Shown here piece by piece: positions 1-22,944 of a stretch of DNA of 22,944 nt. Every line of letters starts with the position of its first letter. The first letter of the stretch is position 1. The stretch is taken from IMG/VR virus record IMGVR_UViG_3300009151_000416, positions 1 to 22,944 of that record. The stretch is one strand, 5' to 3'. The translations under genes and the position numbers were made by a program. This DNA is from a virus. The notes beneath the pieces are model-generated. The model had not been told where the DNA came from. It saw only the letters and a list, made by a program, of their open reading frames with translations, and searched no databases.

Positions 1-959
1 CACCGCAAGGTCTAGCCAAGCACATCGAGGTGTTCAAAGCGTGGGAGATTGACCCAGCCTATCGTGCATGGAACACAGGCAAGTGCGGTATGCACGTACA
101 CATTGACTCTCGTGCCTTCACGCAGTTGACTGTTGGCAAGTTCCTCATGTTCATCAACAGCAGTGGCAACGTCGACTTCATTCGCAAGATTGCAGGTCGC
201 CATCCATCTGTCGATGACCAAGCCCGTAGCTACTGCGCCGCTGAGCATCAGTCCATACTTGCCAACCCCAAGACTGCGGTCAAGGGTAAGTCTGGTGAGC
301 GCTATCGCATGGTCAATATGTGCAACCTCGGCAGTCGTGAGGCTAGGCGTCTGGGTCTTAGCATGGACAACAGCTACAACGGCAAGTACAACACTGTCGA
401 GCTTCGCATCTTCCGTGCTTCGCTCAAGAAGGAACGTCTGCTTGCACAGATCGAGTTCACCCATGCCGCTGTCATGTTCTGCCGTGTCGCATCGTGGCGT
501 GATCTCAACGGCACATCTTTCGTCAAGTGGCTCAAGACTGTGGCGGGTCAGTACCCTGCGCTGACTAAGTGGTATGGCGTGCGCAATGTACACACATCCA
601 CACCGACAGTCATAGCGCCAGCTATGGACACTTGCACTGACGCTGTGCCCCCTGCGCCTTGGCAACCCCACCATACGGAAGACAGGCATGACCGCGAGTA
701 CCCAGTGCACATACCCTACGACAACGAGGCTGAGACCTTGAGATCGTGGGTACGGCGTAACGATCTGTACTTCCGCTTCGCTACCTACGCAGGCTCTGAG
801 TATGCGTACTTCCCCTACGGGGGCGGTGACTTAGATCGCATCAGTGAGGATGATGTTGTCTATATGCGTGTCGGTGAACTGTGGGTTCTTATGAATGAGT
901 CCTTCGCCGCCACGATGGCGCAGTGCTCGTACACAGTGTCTGAAGAGCAACCTGTTTAA
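1..959 (+). CDS. Putative amidoligase (COOH-NH2 ligase), 5'-truncated
   Basis: The frame is open to the window edge, so the true start lies upstream; the GTG at 30 is internal. The protein matches the pattern of the Amidoligase_2 family, ATP-dependent ligases of the glutamine-synthetase fold that join a carboxylate to an amine. Visible signatures are CGMHVHID (about nt 84-107), RYRMVNMCNLG (about nt 300-332) and NTVELRIFRASL (nt 390-425), followed by a helix KKERLLAQIEFTHAAVMF. The first and third correspond to the family's H-x-H and T-V-E-x-R-x-F motifs. About 130 residues follow the core: a Pro/Thr-rich linker, then a small domain ending SEEQPV that I do not recognise. The next gene encodes a glutamine amidotransferase, the natural ammonia donor or trimming partner. 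The substrate cannot be read from sequence: peptidoglycan peptide, a protein tail or a small metabolite are all possible. Family call fairly sure, role inferred. Confidence 0.75.
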   Translation, partial: PQGLAKHIEVFKAWEIDPAYRAWNTGKCGMHVHIDSRAFTQLTVGKFLMFINSSGNVDFIRKIAGRHPSVDDQARSYCAAEHQSILANPKTAVKGKSGERYRMVNMCNLGSREARRLGLSMDNSYNGKYNTVELRIFRASLKKERLLAQIEFTHAAVMFCRVASWRDLNGTSFVKWLKTVAGQYPALTKWYGVRNVHTSTPTVIAPAMDTCTDAVPPAPWQPHHTEDRHDREYPVHIPYDNEAETLRSWVRRNDLYFRFATYAGSEYAYFPYGGGDLDRISEDDVVYMRVGELWVLMNESFAATMAQCSYTVSEEQPV

Positions 960-975
960 TTCAACAACAACCAAC

Positions 976-1000
976 GGGGAAAACTTTCCCCATTCTTTTA
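976..1000 (+). terminator. Hairpin between amidoligase and amidotransferase genes (repeat copy 1)
   Basis: A 16-base inverted repeat at 976-991 (GGGGAA, loop AACT, TTCCCC) is followed by ATTCTTTTA. It resembles a weak intrinsic terminator or an RNA-stabilising hairpin. A near-identical copy (19 of 21 bases including the trailing ATTCT) is at 2755-2775. It sits 27 bases before the next start codon. Confidence 0.45.
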
Positions 1001-1017
1001 CATCAAGGAGTTTTATT

Positions 1018-2124
1018 ATGTGTCTAATTATTACTGGCAAGTCTTCCACAGTTCGTTCAACCCTGCTCAACACACACGGGCTACTGAGCGACATCTTCAC
1101 AGCCAACCCTGACGGCATTGGGTTCATGTATGGTTCAGCCAAGGGACTCAAGGTCACTAAGAACCTGCCCAAGAATCTTGGCGATGCTACTGCATTCATT
1201 CAGCGTCTGCCGCAAGACGATCGTGAGATTGCCATCCACTTCCGCTGGACTACACACGGCAAGACTGACATGGTTAACTGCCATCCGTATGATGTGATTC
1301 CTGGCTTCATCGCCATGATGCACAACGGCATCCTGCATACAGGCAATGCTGCTGACAAAGACAAGTCAGATACATGGCACTTCATCAATGACTACTTGCA
1401 CAGCGCTGTGTCTGCTTCACCAGACCTTGTGTATGACGCAGGCTTCGTTGCTATGCTGGAGGAGTTCATCGGCAACAATCGCTTCGTGTTCATGAATGGC
1501 GAGGGTCGTATGCAACACGTCAACTTCGATCAGGGTATCGAGCATGATGATATGTGGTTCAGCAATACCTATGCTTGGACTCCATCACGCCTGATCCCTA
1601 GCTACAAGAGTGCGACACTCAAGTCGTACAAGTATGCCAGTAGCTATGGTAGCTACATGGACGACGAGTACGACGAGATGTATGACTACAACGCAAGCTT
1701 CGGTATCAAGCCTCGCTTGGTCAGCGCACACAGCGCCAACTACGACGAGACAGCGTATGACTTTCCAGATGACGAGGATGGCTTCGTGCAGCCTACCCCT
1801 GACGACATTGCCGTTGCGCTGACTGAGGCTGACGTAGAGACTGTTGAAGTATGGCTTGACCAGATGCCTGCGTACACAATCACTACGCTACTGCACTGCT
1901 ACACGCCTTCGCCTCTTAGCTACACACATCGTGACGACTTGTGTTTTGCCGAGCAGGGTATCTACGATATGTTGATGGAGGGTGATGCGTCTGGTCTTAT
2001 CAGTTCAGTGACCAAGTCGTATGGCACAGTCGGCATCGTTGCCGAGGTGATGTGCTACTACCTGCAATGGGATGTGCGCACACCTGTGACATTCAAGCCA
2101 ACCTTGCCTGCACTGTTGACTTGA
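1018..2124 (+). CDS. Class II glutamine amidotransferase (Ntn hydrolase)
   Basis: Predicted to hydrolyse glutamine to glutamate and ammonia. The ATG at 1018 is chosen because it follows an AAGGAG site and gives Met-Cys: after Met removal Cys2 would be the N-terminal nucleophile that this family needs. Other class II features are NPDGIGFMY (30-38), HFRWTTHG (74-81, Arg76 in the substrate-binding position), MHNGIL (101-106, the Asn-Gly oxyanion loop) and KSDTWHF (116-122). The amidotransferase domain covers about the first 185 residues. After it comes a Tyr/Asp/Ser-rich stretch (about 195-250) and a C-terminal region of about 115 residues of unknown function. There is no synthetase domain in the polypeptide, so the acceptor enzyme is most likely the adjacent amidoligase. 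A strong terminator follows directly, so the two genes look like one transcription unit. Confidence 0.85.
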   Translation: MCLIITGKSSTVRSTLLNTHGLLSDIFTANPDGIGFMYGSAKGLKVTKNLPKNLGDATAFIQRLPQDDREIAIHFRWTTHGKTDMVNCHPYDVIPGFIAMMHNGILHTGNAADKDKSDTWHFINDYLHSAVSASPDLVYDAGFVAMLEEFIGNNRFVFMNGEGRMQHVNFDQGIEHDDMWFSNTYAWTPSRLIPSYKSATLKSYKYASSYGSYMDDEYDEMYDYNASFGIKPRLVSAHSANYDETAYDFPDDEDGFVQPTPDDIAVALTEADVETVEVWLDQMPAYTITTLLHCYTPSPLSYTHRDDLCFAEQGIYDMLMEGDASGLISSVTKSYGTVGIVAEVMCYYLQWDVRTPVTFKPTLPALLT

Positions 2125-2130
2125 TTCGTA

Positions 2131-2154
2131 GTGGGGGCTTGCCCCCACATTTTT
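2131..2154 (+). terminator. Intrinsic terminator after the amidotransferase gene
   Basis: A perfect 7-bp GC-rich stem (GTGGGGG, loop CTTG, CCCCCAC; 2131-2148) is followed by ATTTTT. It lies 6 bases after the stop codon and ahead of the ribosome site of the next gene. This is the best terminator in the window. Confidence 0.8.
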
Positions 2155-2477: not shown

Positions 2478-2696
2478 ATGAACAGCCCACCCTACGATAC
2501 AGGTAAGGTCAAGATAGGCTTGACTTACGCACCCCCACCCCCTGAATCTACGCCTGAATCCGACTGGATACAGGGCATATTGCTTGGCGACAAGCAGGGG
2601 ATGGATGATCTACTACTCACCACAATACAGTCCCTCGGACTTATCGCTTTCATCGTTATCGTCATGCTACTAACAGGAGGAACCTCAAATGCCTGA
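2478..2696 (+). CDS. Small protein with C-terminal membrane segment
   Basis: A 72-residue protein with AAGGAG nine bases before its ATG. The N-terminal 45 residues are polar and proline-rich (APPPPESTPESDW) and the C-terminus has one hydrophobic segment, LGLIAFIVIVMLLTG (about 53-67), ending GTSNA. This suggests a tail-anchored inner-membrane protein with its soluble part in the cytoplasm, although the topology is not proved. It is the first gene after the 23-bp repeat and overlaps the next start by 8 bases. I recognise no family. Confidence 0.7.
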   Translation: MNSPPYDTGKVKIGLTYAPPPPESTPESDWIQGILLGDKQGMDDLLLTTIQSLGLIAFIVIVMLLTGGTSNA

Positions 2697-3360
2697 CATG
2701 CAAACCGCCCTCAAGACCGCACTTAGCACAACCTTACAGGAATGGGATGACGATGGGGAAAGTTTTCCCCATTCTCCTTCTGTTCAACCAGTGTCATCTT
2801 CTTTATCGCCACCAACTCAAGGAATTCCCATGACCAAGCAGCTCTTTCCAATTAAAAATAACATCACTCGCGTCACGTTTAACTACATCCGAGACAACCC
2901 CGGATCCACACGCAAAGAGATCATCACTGCGCTTGAGCATCAGGACTACAACAGCGGATCAACTTCGTCGCTAATTTCGCAACTGCGTAAGAATGGTCTG
3001 GTGCACATGACCAACGATCTGTACTATGCGGATGCAGATGAGTACGCGCCACTCAAGAAAGTGAAACCTCTGAAAAGCAACGGACTCAAACCCGCACGAG
3101 AGCCTTTTGCTAAGCGTAAGTACGAGAAGAAAGCCGTGACAGGCATCGGTGCGTTACTACGCGAGAAGCTGCAAGCCATGCCAGAGCCTAGCAAAGAAGC
3201 GCTGGATGCAGCTATGAGAGCGATGGAACCTGCGCATATACCCAACAGACGCTACACATCCCTCGTACGCACCAAGACGCCACACGATATATTGCAGGAC
3301 ATGACTGTGTATCAGGCGCATGAGTTGTACGTTCACTTGAAACAGATGTTCGGGGGCTGA
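2689..3360 (+). CDS. Winged-helix DNA-binding protein
   Basis: Two starts are plausible in the same frame. The ATG at 2689 has AGGAGG eight bases upstream and overlaps the previous stop (223 residues). The ATG at 2830 has AAGGA six bases upstream (176 residues, MTKQLFPIKNN). The domain begins only after the second start: ITRVTFNYIRDNPGS-TRKEIITALEH, then SGSTSSLISQLRKNGLVHM, then DLYYADADEY. That is a helix-turn-helix with a wing, similar to MarR-type or phage replication-initiation wHTH domains. The extra 47 residues are low in complexity (Ser/Pro-rich) and their codons span a 16-base inverted repeat at 2755-2770. The C-terminal half (residues 100-223) is basic and helical, without a recognised domain. 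Likely a transcriptional regulator, inferred from fold only. Confidence 0.75.
   Translation: MPDMQTALKTALSTTLQEWDDDGESFPHSPSVQPVSSSLSPPTQGIPMTKQLFPIKNNITRVTFNYIRDNPGSTRKEIITALEHQDYNSGSTSSLISQLRKNGLVHMTNDLYYADADEYAPLKKVKPLKSNGLKPAREPFAKRKYEKKAVTGIGALLREKLQAMPEPSKEALDAAMRAMEPAHIPNRRYTSLVRTKTPHDILQDMTVYQAHELYVHLKQMFGG
2755..2775 (+). repeat. Hairpin repeat copy 2, inside the winged-helix reading frame
   Basis: GGGGAAAGTTTTCCCC (2755-2770) plus ATTCT matches 976-996 at 19 of 21 bases; the two differences are at the hairpin centre. Here it lies between two in-frame start codons (2689 and 2830) and could act as an attenuator or mark the real upstream border of the downstream gene. Confidence 0.55.
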
Positions 3361-12608: not shown

Positions 12609-12902
12609 ATGGCCTACTCACAAAAAATCATTGACGAAGTAGCAAAGACACCCAAGTCTCTGGGCAACCAGCTTGGGCGTTGGGCGATACATCTTGACTT
12701 TCCGGTCACGAAGATTGCCTATGCGCTTGGCGTCTCTCGACAGACTGTTTACAACTGGTTTACAGGCACGGAAGTGTTTGTGGCCTATCGTAATCGCGTC
12801 GAATTCTTAACTCACATAATGAAGACCTCACGCACGGCAGATGAGGCATGGAGAAAAATATGCACGGAATACAACCTAGATCCCTCACCACGCAAGAACT
12901 GA
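12609..12902 (+). CDS. Small helix-turn-helix protein
   Basis: A 97-residue protein. Residues 31-53 (FPVTKIAYALGVSRQTVYNWFTG) are a textbook helix-turn-helix of the Cro/C1 or sigma-like type, with helices on both sides. The ATG at 12609 has no purine-rich ribosome site; the preceding bases are CCCCCACCTATATAC. The upstream 55-base structured element may matter for its translation. A DNA-binding regulator that times the switch around the replication genes is a reasonable reading. The next gene begins out of frame inside its last 43 bases. Confidence 0.75.
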   Translation: MAYSQKIIDEVAKTPKSLGNQLGRWAIHLDFPVTKIAYALGVSRQTVYNWFTGTEVFVAYRNRVEFLTHIMKTSRTADEAWRKICTEYNLDPSPRKN

Positions 12903-15952: not shown

Positions 15953-16142
15953 AAGAGGTCAGGGGTTCTTCATCCCCTGCCTCGATCCTGATAGTGTTCG
16001 TGAACTAGGGCTGCGCAAGGCAGTCCTTTGCCGCGTACTAGATGCCCGTGCTAAGACGGGCATCTACGAAGGCTTTACTGGGGTCTTTTTCTTTCGGTTG
16101 CCCGATAGAAAGCCTCGGCCTCTCGATTCTGCGCCGCCTTGA
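15912..16142 (+). CDS. Small conserved-looking phage protein overlapping two neighbours
   Basis: A 76-residue protein from the ATG at 15912, inside the last 41 bases of the primase-helicase gene in another frame. Its body (FPWETTERGQGFFIPCLDPDSVRELGLRKAVLCRVLDARAKTGIYEGFTGVFFFRLP) has the look of a real protein and resembles short phage proteins with a GFFVPCL...GL..A....R.....GI..G..GV.F.R pattern. The last 22 codons run past the stop of the convergent minus-strand gene. The ribosome site is poor (GACGA). If real, it closes the plus-strand module. Function unknown. Confidence 0.65.
   Translation: MKLSLIRFPWETTERGQGFFIPCLDPDSVRELGLRKAVLCRVLDARAKTGIYEGFTGVFFFRLPDRKPRPLDSAPP
16039..16066. terminator. 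Perfect 11-bp hairpin at the convergent gene junction
   Basis: TAGATGCCCGT (16039-16049) and ACGGGCATCTA (16056-16066) pair perfectly around GCTAAG. It starts 8 bases beyond the stop of the minus-strand giant gene and lies inside the small plus-strand gene. There is no directly adjacent T-run on either strand; on the plus strand TCTTTTTCTTT begins 17 bases later. A bidirectional transcription stop or RNA-end protecting hairpin is likely. Confidence 0.5.
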
Positions 16143-19100
16143 TGCGTGCGATCAGCTCATCTTTACGCTCTGTTGAGAGCCTAGAGTCAGCGCGTATCGT
16201 ACGTTCATCGGTGAACATCTCCCCCATAGACTTCTTGAAGCCTCCAGCCATATCAGCTTGAGCCAACAACGCCGCATACTCCTGCGCCCATGCCTTGGCT
16301 TCAGCTTTCTTACCTCGGCTTGCCAAATCCTCATAGCCCTTTTGCGCTTGCACCACTTCGTCCATGCGGTTGTATGCGCGGTCGACTATGAAGCGCCCAT
16401 CGGCTGACTGGAACAACCCTCCGAAGAACGGCGTCTTGCTAGCTGACGAAGAGGCTTTCGCGCCTTCTGTCGACGAGCGCAGGGCTGGGTCTAGCATGTG
16501 CAACGCTGACAGTCCCAAGGAGCTTGTGTAGCTACGCACAAAGTGCTCGATCATCAGAGGCGACACGCCAACGGCTCCGGTTAACGATCCCAAAGTTTTG
16601 GCCGCCTCGGTCGTTTCTTCGCGGTAGCGCATAGCCGCTGGCAACTCTTTCTCCCTTGCCGATTCGATCGGGCCATATGGTGTAGCGCCAATAGAAGCTT
16701 CGATGAACGGCTTGCCGGCCACAGGCACAACTCCGGGTGCGGACTGCCAGAGCAACATGCCCAAACCTTTGATAGCTTCTTTGGCCTTGGTATCGCGCCT
16801 CGCCACATCAAGGATAGCTTCGGGCAACGCTTTGAACAAGATACCTACCTCATACGGAATCGGTATTTTGAGAGGGTCTTTGACGCCCGGAATGTGCACA
16901 AACCAATTGCCGTACTTAACTTCGGGCGGCATTTTGCGGTAGTCCTCGTCGTCTTCCATCATCAGAGCGTACGACAGCGTTCCAGCCATCAACAAAATGC
17001 CACGCATTTTAATCTTGCGCTGGATTTCCAAACGCTCTGAGAAAGGCATATCGCCCTTGAATGAACGATACAGCACGTCCAAGCCTTGAATCTGCGCATT
17101 GAAGAACGGAATCAGCGTGTTCATTACTTGAATGCTTGGCGACAGTCCACGGCGGCCAAAGTTTTGAGACTCCATCGCACGAAACTGAGAGCGTGCTTCT
17201 GACAAACCTTTTTTTATGGAATCTTCATATATAGTTACGCGGGTAGCCGCGTCAGACTGAAGCGCAAAAGTATCTAGCATGCCAAGCATCTTGTCCCACT
17301 TACCGCGACCTGTGCTGATGTCTTGCAAAAACTTTTGCATATCTTTTTCGTCGCCTGTGTACACGTTGCTACTGACAACAAGCCCACGCATTAACGCTTC
17401 TTCCGAAGGGCTACGGCCAACCCGCATTTTAATCAGGGCTGTTAGCGCGTTAAGCACAGGCACGCCATCCACACCGCCTACGATAGCCGCATTAAGCGGG
17501 TCACGAATTAGCTGACGAACAGGATACGCTGGGCCACGGGTCACAAATTTACGAACCCAGTTTGCTGGAATGCCCATCATGCGTACGATCTCTGGGATGG
17601 TAGTCTTGATACCTTCCATGCCTTTGACAATTAGGTGGGCAGGAATACCAAAGGTATCAGAGTCAATCACAGCAAAGTGGTCATCACCATCAACCTTGTA
17701 GCGCACTACGTCAGCGCCTGCTGGGCCGCTTCCTTTGCCGATCTTGGATGCAAAACCTGCCTTGTACATTGCGTCAGAAGTACTGTGCGTAGCTTGATTC
17801 TTTAAACCGGCACGGGACAGCATGAACGTGTTTTGAACAGCACTGGTCAAAATTGGCAATATGGTTTTTTCGTCGCCCAACATGCGTTGCAAGTCTGGGT
17901 TTTCTTTAATGTTGCCAATACGAATGCTGTGTTCTTTGTCAGTAAACAGCTTGACTTCGTTGTTCTCAATACGATAGAACGGAATAAACGGCGTCTTTTT
18001 CAGCCGCTCGCCCTCTTGTTTAGATATAAATCCGCACTGAACAATAAAGTCTATAAGGCCATTGTTGTACTGTTTGTACACCGCCTTGGCCGCATCAATG
18101 TGTTTCTTAGCTTCAGGGTTTGCCGCCAATGTGGCTTTGTCTTTAAGGTACTCAGCTTTAGCCGCCGCAGGATCAGAAGACAACAAGCGTGACCAGCCGT
18201 TGGGCGTAGCTTCCGCACGCTCACCAGCAACTTGAACTGTCAGGATGCGCTCAGCATCGGCACCTAATCCGGCTTTAGAAGCGTCTTCTATATGCTTGGA
18301 CATATCCACAAGGTTAGGGCCAGTAGATGCTTGGTAACGGTACTCTTTACCAAACGCAGTATTTTCAGATACGATTGATATCGGGCCACTGTTAATAAAT
18401 TGCCCCGCGGCTTGCGTAGTCTTATCAGCTAAACGCAGGAAATACTGCGTTTGGAAAGCCTCTGTAGAAGACAACTTACCAGCGCCTTCACCAGCCACAA
18501 TAGCCGCATCTGCTGCAGCTAAGCTATCAATTAACTGTACGCGTCCACCAAGGCCAAACAAGTTTGCTTTGAGCGAATCTAATTTGTTGGCTTCTTGGCC
18601 AACAATAACTGAGCTAACTGCTGGCGCTTTGGTGCGGAAGACGGATGCCGTGTTGAGCTTGTCCACCATCTCAAACTTCTGTGCAGGCATGTACAGCGCT
18701 TCAATGTTCTTGGTAGCTACATCAGTAGTCAACTGACCTGTCTTGAAGCCAATTAAACGCAAGACGGCTTTGAAGAAGCGTGTCAACATGTTGCCGCCAA
18801 ACCAAGGCTTTTCATTGATGCGGTCACGGAAGTCTTTATTAGACTGCACCTCAGACGCAAACTCAGCTACGTTGGTCAGGCCGTACTCATTAACCAACGC
18901 CTTGTCTTTTTTCAGTTGGTTGAACATGGCGTTCAACTCATTACGCGCCGCAAGCTGGTCTTTAGTTAGATCGGTTGCAGGCATTACCAAACCGCGCAGT
19001 GATGCGGCGTGGGTCACTTCGTGGATCAGGTTTTCTTCTGTCAACTCTCCGGGTCTAAACGACACAGTGTTGGTCACGTTGTTGTAGAACGCAGGCACGG

Positions 19101-22100
19101 GAACGCCATTAGCATCAACCAAATTAGGATCAATGACTACCTTGGTGCGAAGCAACATGTCAACCACGTTTTTGGCGTTCTGGCGAATGAACTCGGTCTG
19201 TCCGTTCTCAGCCACATCATTGACAGCATCAAGTAAGCGCCCATCTGCAATGGCTTCTTTAGCCGTGTCAGATAACTGAGCCTGCTCCATCTCCGTGTAC
19301 TGCGTTGCAGCACCTTGGATTGGGCCTTCTTCGTCAATCTCTGGCAGTGTGGCGGCTTCTTGCTTGGCAGTAGCGGCATCGATTGCCGCTTCGACTTCTG
19401 CTTGCGATCCGCCTTTGAGGGCTTTAGATGCACGAATATCACGCGCATTTTTGTATACTTCTTCTGCCGCATCGCTACGCTGGTTAGCAAGGTCAAGGGC
19501 GTCTTGTGCCAACTCCTTGGTTGCAGGGGTCTTGGCTTCGTCAAAATCTTTCTGAGCTTTTTCAAGATCAATCACTGACTGACGATAGCGCTCACGGGCC
19601 GCAATAATTTCAATCGTTGGGCCTTGACCCAACAGGCGCTTGCCTTCAGCCAACTGCTTGGCAACTTGGTCTTCAGTCAAACCTTCGGTGGCCTCTGCGT
19701 AAGCAGTCTCCAACTTAGCGCGGCTGGCATCAGTAGCGCCATCTAAACGAGCTTTCGCTGTAAACAAATGAACTGCGTTGGCAGCTTCTTGTGACAAGCC
19801 GTCGGCTCTAAGTTTAATAACCCCGGCTTGGCGTACACGTTTAGCGCCAGCCAAGTTACGAACCACGGGGCCTTCTTTACGGGCAGGTAACCGCATACCT
19901 TCCGCAGCCGCTGGTTGTGGTGCATTAGGCTGTTCTACATCACGTTCCACAATAGGCGCTGATGCGTAAATGGTGTCGATATTGGACTCAATCTGGTTGT
20001 ACTCGGTTTGATACTTTTCAATATCCGCTGTGTTGTTTGTCAACCTAGCCTTACCCAAGTTAGTATCTGCGGCAGCTAAATTTTTCTTAAGCTTGTTAAG
20101 TTCTGCCGTCATTGCTGGGCCAGAAGTGTCTCTTGTAAAGCGACGTACGTCATAGCCTGTGCCAGACATGGCTTTTTCAAGGCGATCTTTTTCTACCTTG
20201 GCAGCGTCCAGTGCTTTGCGTTGTTCTCCAGCGCCAGCATTTCTTTCGGCCTGCAACTTGCGTTCTTCTTCACGCGCTTTGGTTTCTGCTTCTGCACGCG
20301 CTTTTTCAGCTTTAGCGGCTGTAGCTTTGGCTTCTTCAATTTGTTTGACCAAAGGAGACTCTTGGTTCAAAGCTTTAGCCAAACGAGCGCTGGTGTTTAC
20401 AAACGCTTCACGCAAATCCTCACCCATCAACTTGTTTAAAGTCAAATTATCTCGACGTGCGGCCAAGTAAACCAGTTCAGCAGCCTGTGTCTTAGGTAGA
20501 AGTTTGTCAGTCGCACTAGAGGCGCGAGTCATAGCACTGTCTAAGCGGCCAAACTCAAGACCAGAAGCCATAGAAGGCAGGTTATCTATTCCTCTGCGAG
20601 CCGCCTCATATGCTTCCTGTGACGCATCGCTAACTTTCTTAGCTGCGTTGTATTCACTACGAGCGTCTTTTTCGGCAAAATCAACAGTAGCCGCGTAGTC
20701 TCTTGGCAACGGCCCTTTCATTTTGGCTATTACAGGAGACAGCGCTTTCTGCTTATCAGACCCGCGCTCTTGCAGCACTGCGTCAATTTTTGCCAACTCA
20801 TCGTCAATTGCTTTAACGTTTTCTTCAGAAAACGCGCCTTTAACAAGAGGCTCAAGCTCCTGTATGACTAGTTGTTGTTGTCTAATTTCTTGTGTAACAC
20901 CCGACTCGGATAACTTGCCACGAGCAGATGTAAGCTCTCTGCCAGACATACGCGCAATTTCAGTTGCCCTTGACAGCGCCTTCTGCGCTTTAACGACTTC
21001 TGGCACTTTGGCCACAGGTGCAACGGATTGCTTTTTGATATCCCAGCTTTCAGCTTTCTTAGGCTTGGTAAGAATTCTGTCCTTAACATTCTTAAACTCA
21101 CGAGTTTCACCGGCTTTTAAACGCTCGGCTTCAGTTTGGCCGGCAGGAGCTTTTGTAACAGCGCCTTGTTGCTGTTCCTGCATACGCTGGCGGCGTTCTA
21201 AATCAATCAGTGCAGCTTCAGCTTTGGGCACCGCACGTTGGGCTTGCTCCAATTCTTTTTGAATTGCTTTTAGATCGGCTTGACCTTGTTCAGTCAAATC
21301 TGCCAGCATGTCAAAGTAGCGTGAGTTTTGTTCGCGTGCTGCGTAATCTGCTACAGCTCTATCTAATAAAAAGCTGTTAGGAAAATCTCTACGCTCTGCC
21401 TGATATTGTTTGACTTCATTCCGTAACCTAGTGGCCAGTTCACGGAAGTATTGAGGGTTGTCTTGCAACGCCTCTGTGTTGCGCATAGCTTTCTTTAGTT
21501 CTTCAACCCTAGTCTCTGCCGCCACAAACGCAGTGCGCGCATCTGTCAGTTCTTCGGGCGTAATCTCACGCAGTGTAGGCGCAAGGCGCTGTGGCTGAAT
21601 GCCGGGCAACTCTCGTTGACCTGTAACTGCGGTTGTTTCTTCTTCAGTTCCAGCGGCAATCTTTGCCTTCAAGTCATCACGAGCTTTCTGCAACTGTGCG
21701 CGGATGTTGCCTCTCTCGGACTCAACAGTCAGACCTTTAAGCTGGCGCTCAATGTTGCCAAGCTGCTGTTGCATCTCAGCCATCTCTGGCGTAACTTCTT
21801 GGGCTTGTTTGTTAGCTTCTGCAATAGCGGGACGTGCAGTACGCAACTTTCTTAACTCATCGCCGAGGTCTTTACGGCGGTCTTTAAGTTCTGCCAACGC
21901 AGCCATCTTGGCTTCGTCTGTGGGCCGGCCAGCTTTTTGGACACGCTCATTTACAAGACGCAACTCACGCGTAACTTCATCAATACGGTTAGCCGCACCC
22001 TCTACACGTTCAATAGGAAGCTGACGGCCTGCTTTAGATACTTCACGCTCTTCTGCGATGACTTGGCTGTAACGATCAATTATGGCATCAGCGCGTTCTT

Positions 22101-22944
22101 CCAAACCTTTCTCTAGCGGCCTGTCAGCAATAGTCAGTAGTTGTTCACGCAAACCTTGATTAGCTTCGCGTTCTAGTGCTTTGCCGTTTGCCAAGAGGCG
22201 GTTAATGTTTACAAGGCGGGTTGCATCAAAGATAAACTGGCTTGTAGCTTTACGCACCTCATTAAAGTTTTTTCCTTTGGCCGCGTCATACAGGTCAATC
22301 AAGTCGTCGTGTACTTTGGCGCGCAATTCTTGCGTCTGCTGGCGCATTTTTGCTCGGTCGTTCTGTACGTCAAACCCTTCTTGCGCAGGCTTTAACTTGG
22401 GCAAGTAGTAGTCAAGCAACGACGCCACGTTCTCGTCTGTGCGCTCACCAATAATGTTCTGAGCAAACGGGGTTGTGTCTTTATAACGGTCAGCCGTCTC
22501 CATACGGCGGTTCAGGTTATCCAAAGCTTTGCGCTTTACGTTCAACTCAAACGTTTGGCGGCTAGGCAGCATCTTGCCCGCTTCGTCCTCACTCTTAGAC
22601 AGTTCTTTAACGTCTTTCTCAAGCGTCTCTTTGAGCTTGTCGCGGTCATCGCGGAACTCTGTGTTAGCAGGGTCTTGCTTTAACTTGTTCCAGTCTTGCT
22701 CACCATCTTTAAACAAAGCCAACAAAGAACGTGCGTCTTCCAAGTCCTTGTCATAAATTGCTTGCTCTACAGGAGAGCGGCCTTTGTTTTTCTCCGCTAT
22801 GGTTTGCAGCTTTTCAATTTCAGCTTCAACGCTTTCCCGTGTCTCGCGGGCTTCTTGCGCGCCTTTGTCAATCTCAGCGGCAAACAAATCATCTGTGGGC
22901 GTACCGCGGAACTGATCGCCTTCCATCAATGTGGGTACGGCTTC
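16075..22944 (-). CDS. Giant polyvalent virion protein with HExxH and LPD38-type region, 5' end beyond window
   Basis: More than 2280 codons. The first Met-like codon is at 22929, but the frame stays open to the window edge (EAVPTL before it), so the start is probably outside. Residue numbers count from 22929. About 1-1200: very long Ala/Glu/Lys/Arg-rich helices with coiled-coil spacing and Gln/Pro-rich breaks. About 1235-1400: a zincin-like domain with LIHEVTHAAS (H1303, E1304, H1307) and a following VAEFASEV helix. About 1470-1780: mixed region with VIVGQEA and FIPFYRIENNEVKLF. About 1785-2180: RKFVTRGPAYPVRQLIRDP, then ALQSDAATRVTIYED, matching the LPD38 region of phage polyvalent proteins; it includes hydrophobic pieces (GILLMAGTLSYALMM). 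Such proteins are thought to be packaged and ejected with the genome. Strand and size fit a late virion gene. Confidence 0.85.
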   Translation of the reverse strand, partial: EAVPTLMEGDQFRGTPTDDLFAAEIDKGAQEARETRESVEAEIEKLQTIAEKNKGRSPVEQAIYDKDLEDARSLLALFKDGEQDWNKLKQDPANTEFRDDRDKLKETLEKDVKELSKSEDEAGKMLPSRQTFELNVKRKALDNLNRRMETADRYKDTTPFAQNIIGERTDENVASLLDYYLPKLKPAQEGFDVQNDRAKMRQQTQELRAKVHDDLIDLYDAAKGKNFNEVRKATSQFIFDATRLVNINRLLANGKALEREANQGLREQLLTIADRPLEKGLEERADAIIDRYSQVIAEEREVSKAGRQLPIERVEGAANRIDEVTRELRLVNERVQKAGRPTDEAKMAALAELKDRRKDLGDELRKLRTARPAIAEANKQAQEVTPEMAEMQQQLGNIERQLKGLTVESERGNIRAQLQKARDDLKAKIAAGTEEETTAVTGQRELPGIQPQRLAPTLREITPEELTDARTAFVAAETRVEELKKAMRNTEALQDNPQYFRELATRLRNEVKQYQAERRDFPNSFLLDRAVADYAAREQNSRYFDMLADLTEQGQADLKAIQKELEQAQRAVPKAEAALIDLERRQRMQEQQQGAVTKAPAGQTEAERLKAGETREFKNVKDRILTKPKKAESWDIKKQSVAPVAKVPEVVKAQKALSRATEIARMSGRELTSARGKLSESGVTQEIRQQQLVIQELEPLVKGAFSEENVKAIDDELAKIDAVLQERGSDKQKALSPVIAKMKGPLPRDYAATVDFAEKDARSEYNAAKKVSDASQEAYEAARRGIDNLPSMASGLEFGRLDSAMTRASSATDKLLPKTQAAELVYLAARRDNLTLNKLMGEDLREAFVNTSARLAKALNQESPLVKQIEEAKATAAKAEKARAEAETKAREEERKLQAERNAGAGEQRKALDAAKVEKDRLEKAMSGTGYDVRRFTRDTSGPAMTAELNKLKKNLAAADTNLGKARLTNNTADIEKYQTEYNQIESNIDTIYASAPIVERDVEQPNAPQPAAAEGMRLPARKEGPVVRNLAGAKRVRQAGVIKLRADGLSQEAANAVHLFTAKARLDGATDASRAKLETAYAEATEGLTEDQVAKQLAEGKRLLGQGPTIEIIAARERYRQSVIDLEKAQKDFDEAKTPATKELAQDALDLANQRSDAAEEVYKNARDIRASKALKGGSQAEVEAAIDAATAKQEAATLPEIDEEGPIQGAATQYTEMEQAQLSDTAKEAIADGRLLDAVNDVAENGQTEFIRQNAKNVVDMLLRTKVVIDPNLVDANGVPVPAFYNNVTNTVSFRPGELTEENLIHEVTHAASLRGLVMPATDLTKDQLAARNELNAMFNQLKKDKALVNEYGLTNVAEFASEVQSNKDFRDRINEKPWFGGNMLTRFFKAVLRLIGFKTGQLTTDVATKNIEALYMPAQKFEMVDKLNTASVFRTKAPAVSSVIVGQEANKLDSLKANLFGLGGRVQLIDSLAAADAAIVAGEGAGKLSSTEAFQTQYFLRLADKTTQAAGQFINSGPISIVSENTAFGKEYRYQASTGPNLVDMSKHIEDASKAGLGADAERILTVQVAGERAEATPNGWSRLLSSDPAAAKAEYLKDKATLAANPEAKKHIDAAKAVYKQYNNGLIDFIVQCGFISKQEGERLKKTPFIPFYRIENNEVKLFTDKEHSIRIGNIKENPDLQRMLGDEKTILPILTSAVQNTFMLSRAGLKNQATHSTSDAMYKAGFASKIGKGSGPAGADVVRYKVDGDDHFAVIDSDTFGIPAHLIVKGMEGIKTTIPEIVRMMGIPANWVRKFVTRGPAYPVRQLIRDPLNAAIVGGVDGVPVLNALTALIKMRVGRSPSEEALMRGLVVSSNVYTGDEKDMQKFLQDISTGRGKWDKMLGMLDTFALQSDAATRVTIYEDSIKKGLSEARSQFRAMESQNFGRRGLSPSIQVMNTLIPFFNAQIQGLDVLYRSFKGDMPFSERLEIQRKIKMRGILLMAGTLSYALMMEDDEDYRKMPPEVKYGNWFVHIPGVKDPLKIPIPYEVGILFKALPEAILDVARRDTKAKEAIKGLGMLLWQSAPGVVPVAGKPFIEASIGATPYGPIESAREKELPAAMRYREETTEAAKTLGSLTGAVGVSPLMIEHFVRSYTSSLGLSALHMLDPALRSSTEGAKASSSASKTPFFGGLFQSADGRFIVDRAYNRMDEVVQAQKGYEDLASRGKKAEAKAWAQEYAALLAQADMAGGFKKSMGEMFTDERTIRADSRLSTERKDELIARIKAAQNREAEAFYRATERKRPQ

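Follow-up and report, generated by a model that had tools for sequence, protein, structure and literature searches.

The first two kilobases of a 22,944-base IMG/VR virus record, the stretch analyzed here as a whole and referred to as the window, carry the end of a gene for a predicted amidoligase followed by a complete gene for a predicted glutamine amidotransferase (GATase). The locus raises two questions: what chemistry such a pair performs for a phage, and how its expression is controlled. A preliminary description read the pair as an amide-forming modification system closed by a terminator. The explanation that we consider best, and hold with moderate confidence, joins an enzyme module for ammonia-fed amidation to regulator-operator control by the first gene of the operon; here we infer the binding, the repression, the chemistry and the target alike. 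The features of the window on which the argument draws are as follows.

3..959, + strand: Amidoligase_2 ligase, C-terminal 318 of 696 amino acids (PF12224 over cutoff; identical full-length reading frame in L008)
976..991, no strand: genome-specific palindrome GGGGAAA-AC-TTTCCCC (GGGGAAAACTTTCCCC), a proposed operator between ligase and GATase, one of seven copies in contig G001
1005..1010, + strand: ribosome-binding site AAGGAG of the GATase gene, read directly from the sequence
1018..2124, + strand: class II (Ntn) GATase-like protein of 368 amino acids with a Met-Cys start and an extra C-terminal helical domain (invariant residues; AlphaFold2 and Foldseek)
2131..2148, + strand: hairpin followed by a T run (GTGGGGGCTTGCCCCCAC ATTTTT), after the GATase gene; an operator-type palindrome stands at the same place in G004
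2755..2770, no strand: second window copy, GGGGAAA-GT-TTTCCCC, inside the 5' part of the reading frame 2689-3360; relatives have their own palindrome at the same place

The window begins within the ligase gene, and the extension of the contig that had been proposed earlier was supplied by a near-identical contig of 60,609 bases (G001, locus L008), which spans the window from its base 16,917 with 3 mismatches over 22,944 bases. The complete ligase gene lies at L008:2852-4942 and encodes 696 amino acids. The phages of this group are uncultivated, and their host is probably Burkholderiales-like. The integrase family PF00589 was not found in 12 relatives of the window phage, all of which are fragments. 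On the minus strand, positions 16075-22929 of the window hold a very long reading frame of 2,284 amino acids (2,880 in G001), with a coiled-coil-like composition and an HExxH motif (LIHEVTHAAS); its product is perhaps an injected virion protein.

The ligase belongs to the family to which it had been assigned, as the Amidoligase_2 model PF12224 matches with 25.8 bits for the fragment and 28.9 bits for the full protein, against a curated Pfam cutoff of 22 bits. The motifs HVHID and NTVELRIF are present, and the full-length protein retains its ATP/metal-type residues, the loss of which had been named as grounds for rejecting the assignment. Across 43 ligases the residues G332, E334, E336, D365, S367, E374, C406, G407, H409, H411, R444, N483, T509, E511 and R513 are invariant, a set that takes in the family's acidic, histidine and arginine residues of the active site. 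The AlphaFold2 model has a mean pLDDT of 84, and its predicted fold matches that of glutamine synthetase (5dm3, E 5.1e-4) and YbdK (1r8g, E 9.1e-4), both with a Foldseek probability of 1.00; gamma-glutamylmethylamide synthetase is also among the neighbors, and the TM-scores of these matches are low, the query carrying extra domains. A sequence search of the PDB with the ligase returned chance antibody matches and nothing else. The N-terminal region is rich in cysteine, with C233 invariant and C251 and C254 nearly invariant among the 43 sequences, and its motifs are probably zinc-binding. In the window phage's ligase (P0003) the conserved CxC...CxxC stretch occupies residues ~231-285 and is followed by an acidic linker. 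Similar cysteine pairs are seen in ligase homologues from gut bacteria.

The GATase gene starts with the ATG at 1018. Its product scores 12.9 bits against the Pfam GATase_4 model, under the curated cutoff of 23, and phmmer finds the GlmS glutaminase motif weakly (E 0.004). Comparison of 36 diverse GATases, drawn from relatives in phages and bacterial genomes, leaves C2, N30, D32, G33, H74, R76, G81, H89, P90, H102, N103, G104, D118 and S182 invariant. We take this set to include the class II nucleophile and the glutamine-binding residues, on the basis of position in the GlmS motif alignment and of what is known of the family. The motifs Cys2, HFRWTTHG and NG pointed out in the preliminary description are all there, and H89 P90, D118 T119 and S182 complete the active site beyond them. 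In the AlphaFold2 model (mean pLDDT 80, mostly >90 over residues 1-180) the closest Foldseek structures are GlmS (1xff, E 3.4e-6) and EgtC (4zfl, E 1.8e-5). By predicted fold and active site the protein is a class II, Ntn-type GATase despite its sub-cutoff Pfam score. We read the protein as a divergent subfamily of the fold, outside the GATase_4 family as curated.

The ligase fragment and the GATase gene are adjacent and co-directional, just as first described, and the suggestion that the pair might be conserved in relatives holds almost without exception. The ligase is present in 12 of 12 large relatives and adjoins the GATase in every IMG/VR GATase locus with room upstream; in the 11 IMG/VR loci with a GATase and no ligase, the GATase starts at most 163 bases from the end of the DNA, and where a ligase has no GATase the DNA stops within ~100 bases of the ligase. 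On contigs of bacterial genomes, which include Candidimonas, Collinsella, Adlercreutzia, Treponema and Erysipelotrichaceae, the genes adjoin in 16 of 19 GATase loci, or 16 of 18 when one of the remaining three, at a contig edge, is set aside. The pair is adjacent in the sequenced phages MEP401, MEP402 and MW202733, and the two genes stand ~1.1 kb apart in phage PV036454. By computation the two genes form an intact, nearly obligate unit, and the pair is a widespread phage module. An apparent ligase-GATase fusion in an Atopobiaceae MAG (L196:4717-6762) was set aside: the DNA at the junction is nearly that of L195, the end of the ligase reads frameshifted, and a frameshift is the most likely cause.

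The pair had been put forward as the best candidate for undescribed biology, which overstates its novelty. Phage modules of amidoligase and GATase have already been published, together with the same hypothesis of cell-wall modification and superinfection (PMC10580990, PMC5498523, PMC3890496). Both genes were reported in OM43 phages (PMC10580990), in a paper that credits Iyer et al. 2009 with the idea that phiEco32 guards against superinfection by modifying the cell wall. Larger cassettes are known from LUZ24-like and RIO1-like phages (PMC3890496, PMC5498523), and there too the idea is credited to Iyer et al. Experiments on the chemistry of the pair were not found in these published descriptions. 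In MEP401 and MEP402 (OM43 phages) and in Podoviridae sp. MW202733, genes of the same families are likewise adjacent, co-directional and placed in the early region near replication genes (PMC10580990). There the genes overlap or are a few bases apart, whereas those of the window are ~58 bp apart; the proteins are 23-30% identical to the window pair, and no palindrome array was found in these three phages. The "peptidoglycan modification cassette" of phiEco32, LUZ24 and RIO-1 resembles the window in having Amidoligase_2 and a class II GATase among the early genes, but adds COOH-NH2_lig, a gamma-glutamyl cyclotransferase and an ATP-grasp ligase (PMC3890496, PMC5498523). COOH-NH2_lig and the cyclotransferase are absent from genomes G001-G010, with positive results in the LUZ24 and phiEco32 controls; the RimK model for ATP-grasp gave no match in G001-G010 or in the LUZ24 control and a sub-cutoff one in the phiEco32 control. 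The window pair is thus a two-gene form of a known kind, without two other families of the cassette.

Our first choice for the chemistry is that ammonia from glutamine feeds an ATP-dependent amidation, with an EgtA/EgtC-type arrangement close behind. Most likely, the glutaminase would split glutamine at its N-terminal cysteine and supply ammonia, and the glutamine-synthetase-fold ligase would use ATP, early in infection, to activate a carboxylate of a host target and turn it into an amide, an assignment made at the level of the family. A target in the host envelope is favored because of the early position of the genes and the literature, and cell-wall peptides are the leading guess. The term amide-forming, as first applied to the locus, is accordingly fair as a family-level statement, although a gamma-glutamyl ligase and hydrolase of the EgtA/EgtC kind would fit nearly as well. 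In EgtA/EgtC and PuuA/PuuD, which are metabolic enzymes, a ligase of the GS/GCL type works with a hydrolase of the GATase fold. These systems share with the window pair the combination of a ligase and a GATase-fold partner but lack the phage context and the Cys-rich N-terminus, both of which the window ligase has. On such a model the GATase would take gamma-glutamyl groups off as an Ntn hydrolase, and its partner would be a ligase for gamma-glutamyl or another amino acid, the two forming a protect/deprotect or tag/untag pair. EgtC structures do come after GlmS among the fold neighbors of the GATase, YbdK and gamma-glutamylmethylamide synthetase are among the neighbors of the ligase, and the larger phage cassettes contain a gamma-glutamyl cyclotransferase. 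That cyclotransferase is, however, absent from this phage group, and GlmS is both the best fold match of the GATase and the nearest relative in the HMM evidence, and we regard the gamma-glutamyl model as a serious but less likely alternative. Class II GATases also take part in the 7-deazaguanine modification of phage DNA, and on that precedent the pair might act on a nucleotide or DNA base instead of a protein or the cell wall. Such a role is highly improbable, given that none of the window genes examined resembles a 7-deazaguanine gene and that the partner belongs to a family of carboxylate-amine ligases.

Amidation fed by glutamine-derived ammonia, the preferred chemistry, leaves the control of the pair to be explained, and here the DNA between the two genes is informative. 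The palindrome at 976-991 was absent from the preliminary description. G001 contains seven such palindromes, all at 12.7-19.7 kb, with no further copy in the rest of the 60,000 bases covered, and two of them fall within the window. In shuffles that preserved dinucleotides, no such arm was seen more than once. Related phages each have 3-8 copies of a palindrome of their own at corresponding positions, with arms that read GGGGAAC, GGGGAGA, GGGGACA, GGGGAC-nnn, GGGGTCA, GTTGCAC, GGGAGAAC or GGGAAGA. Within a genome the arms agree almost completely and 1-3 central bases vary, and asymmetric centers such as CTT/AAG are found in both orientations. Some copies are intragenic, and there the encoded peptide shifts with the arm, from GGEKVSP (AGA) to GGELVP (AAC) in one case and between DDGESFP and DDGEQVP in another. 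An element resembling a -10 promoter sequence can be made out by eye some tens of bases upstream of the first palindrome, and the sites thus seem to fall within a transcribed leader, where a palindrome could instead function as a hairpin in the RNA. Many genomes, G002-G007 among them, have another conserved inverted repeat (ATCGG...CCGAT) downstream of the promoter-like region and ahead of the first palindrome. The hairpin at 2131-2148, earlier called a strong terminator that closes the pair, is real, but it may not end the operon because relatives such as G004 have their own palindrome at this place and then, at once, a ribosome-binding site.

Where the sequence reaches far enough upstream, the distance from the first palindrome to the start of the first early gene is 34-52 bases in most genomes; in some, the criteria applied yielded no site ahead of this gene, or the position fell outside the sequence examined. 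This gene encodes a protein of 124-156 amino acids, whose N-terminal sequence occurs in several types that match the arm types and whose C-terminal part is exchanged between types. By computation, the palindrome changes together with this first protein and not with the ligase. Among the 37 testable of 39 genomes, the nearest neighbor by the N-terminus of the first gene shares the arm in 34 cases, compared with 17 of 37 when the neighbor is chosen by ligase. Permutation of the labels reached the observed difference in 0 of 5000 trials for the N-terminus and 941 of 5000 for the ligase, figures that are descriptive given that the genomes are related and sometimes come from one sample. In the GGGGA group, the AUC for separating same-arm from different-arm pairs is 0.96 for the first-gene N-terminus and 0.49 for the ligase, with 0.60 for the GATase, 0.49 for gene 2, 0.59 for the 74-aa gene and 0.93 for up259, another early gene. 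Within the alpha class the N-terminus reaches 1.000, up259 0.83 and the ligase 0.545. Overall identity fails to separate AGA from AAC in the beta class for any gene (first gene 0.57, up259 0.58); a conserved stretch of the first-gene protein reads VNT in all AAC and VNA in all AGA members of this class, whose sites measure 16 or 17 bp in total, spacer length mostly tracking a subtype difference.

Individual pairs of genomes illustrate the coupling. G001 and L230 have ligases that are 93% identical, first N-termini that are 25% identical and different arms (AAA vs AGA), whereas G003 and G004, at 61% identity in the ligase and 92% in the first N-terminus, both have AGA arms. Simple linkage is insufficient as an explanation because the ligase sits between the sites and yet does not track the arms. 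Where the N-terminal domain has been exchanged, the sites have probably been replaced along with it, across 7-8 kb and to either side of unrelated genes. Swaps of this kind between close relatives provide natural matched pairs for the study of specificity. In two contigs from one sample, L213 and L214, a 3.06-kb segment with the ligase is 99.5% identical; the two differ upstream and have mixed arms, reflecting either recent recombination or a chimeric assembly.

We read the palindromes and the first protein as a putative regulator-operator system that resembles the stoperators of mycobacteriophages. In the proposed mechanism, the early operon containing the enzyme pair would be under regulator-operator control: the first protein of the operon would recognize the phage-specific palindrome through its N-terminal domain, copies of this operator would stand in genes and transcribed leaders, one of them separating ligase from glutaminase, and the protein, once bound, would hold early transcription down as a roadblock or repressor. 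A DNA-binding role is proposed for this protein on account of its coupling to the palindrome. It had no relative in Pfam, HTH families included, or in PHROG, no credible hit came from PDB profile searches, and for two of the types tblastn against 50,697 phage records returned no match.

The same palindromes might instead be ordinary intrinsic terminators or attenuator hairpins, homogenized within each genome by recombination and read by no cognate protein. Their stems are GC-rich, and several copies, that at 976-991 included, precede T-rich stretches; yet many others have no T run and some lie within coding genes, asymmetric centers occur in both orientations, and the type of arm tracks the N-terminus of the first protein and not the ligase located between the sites. 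As their sole function, plain termination is ruled out by the coding copies, the missing T runs and the two orientations, and we judge the broader hairpin explanation unlikely. A reading of similarly low probability accepts the palindromes as real operators but assigns them to another protein, such as up259, with the first gene merely linked. The gene up259 tracks the alpha and beta classes, with a high AUC in the GGGGA group, and its product may be an alternative reader for the class difference, but it falls behind the first gene in the alpha class, and in the beta class neither gene tracks the arms by overall identity. The window also encodes a 97-aa HTH protein (12609-12902, + strand), whose recognition helix is the same across genomes with different arms; it was rejected as the reader of the palindromes.

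Recognition by the first-gene protein, our preferred reading, invites comparison with the stoperators of cluster A mycobacteriophages, which are 13 bp, asymmetric and in one orientation, number 20-30 per genome and are bound by an HTH repressor (PMC6550527, PMC9283540). Both systems repeat one genome-specific motif in transcribed regions, and in both the motif differs between relatives alongside the regulator, here a candidate one. In contrast, the sites of the window group are palindromes of 14-17 bp present in 3-12 copies, mainly in the early region, and lack the asymmetry, single orientation and genome-wide number of 20-30; moreover, the candidate regulator has no recognizable HTH, which the cluster A repressor has. 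Probably these phages encode small modular regulators at the head of the operon, whose exchangeable N-terminal domains come in six or more types and whose C-terminal parts are swapped, and which would read genome-specific 14-17 bp palindromes dispersed over the early operon as a stoperator-like immunity or timing code that controls the amidoligase/GATase module and is also found in a Candidimonas prophage. If such a code operates, stoperator-like control would reach Gram-negative phages as well, and its DNA-binding protein would be of a new kind. No description of genome-specific palindromes coupled to a first-gene protein was found in the literature searched for these phages, and the arrangement looks new.

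The arrangement recurs in the 5.6-Mb genome of Candidimonas nitroreducens SC-089, where locus L192 contains the enzyme pair and repeats of TTAACCCAGGTTAA. The genome has 11 exact copies of this 14-mer, 10 of which lie inside one 17-kb stretch that also holds an integrase and the enzyme pair. When variation in spacer and center is allowed, the stretch has 12 sites of the form TTAACC-n(1-3)-GGTTAA. The prophage is located in the following entry.

L231/L232, contig C2, 125,381-143,209: prophage carrying the ligase/GATase pair, an integrase, a terminase and 12 palindromes

The locus links the pair and its palindromes to a temperate element, and it offers a place to study the pair in a sequenced bacterium. 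One site, at 143,196, immediately precedes the first gene of the leftward operon, and the terminase gene is on its other side.
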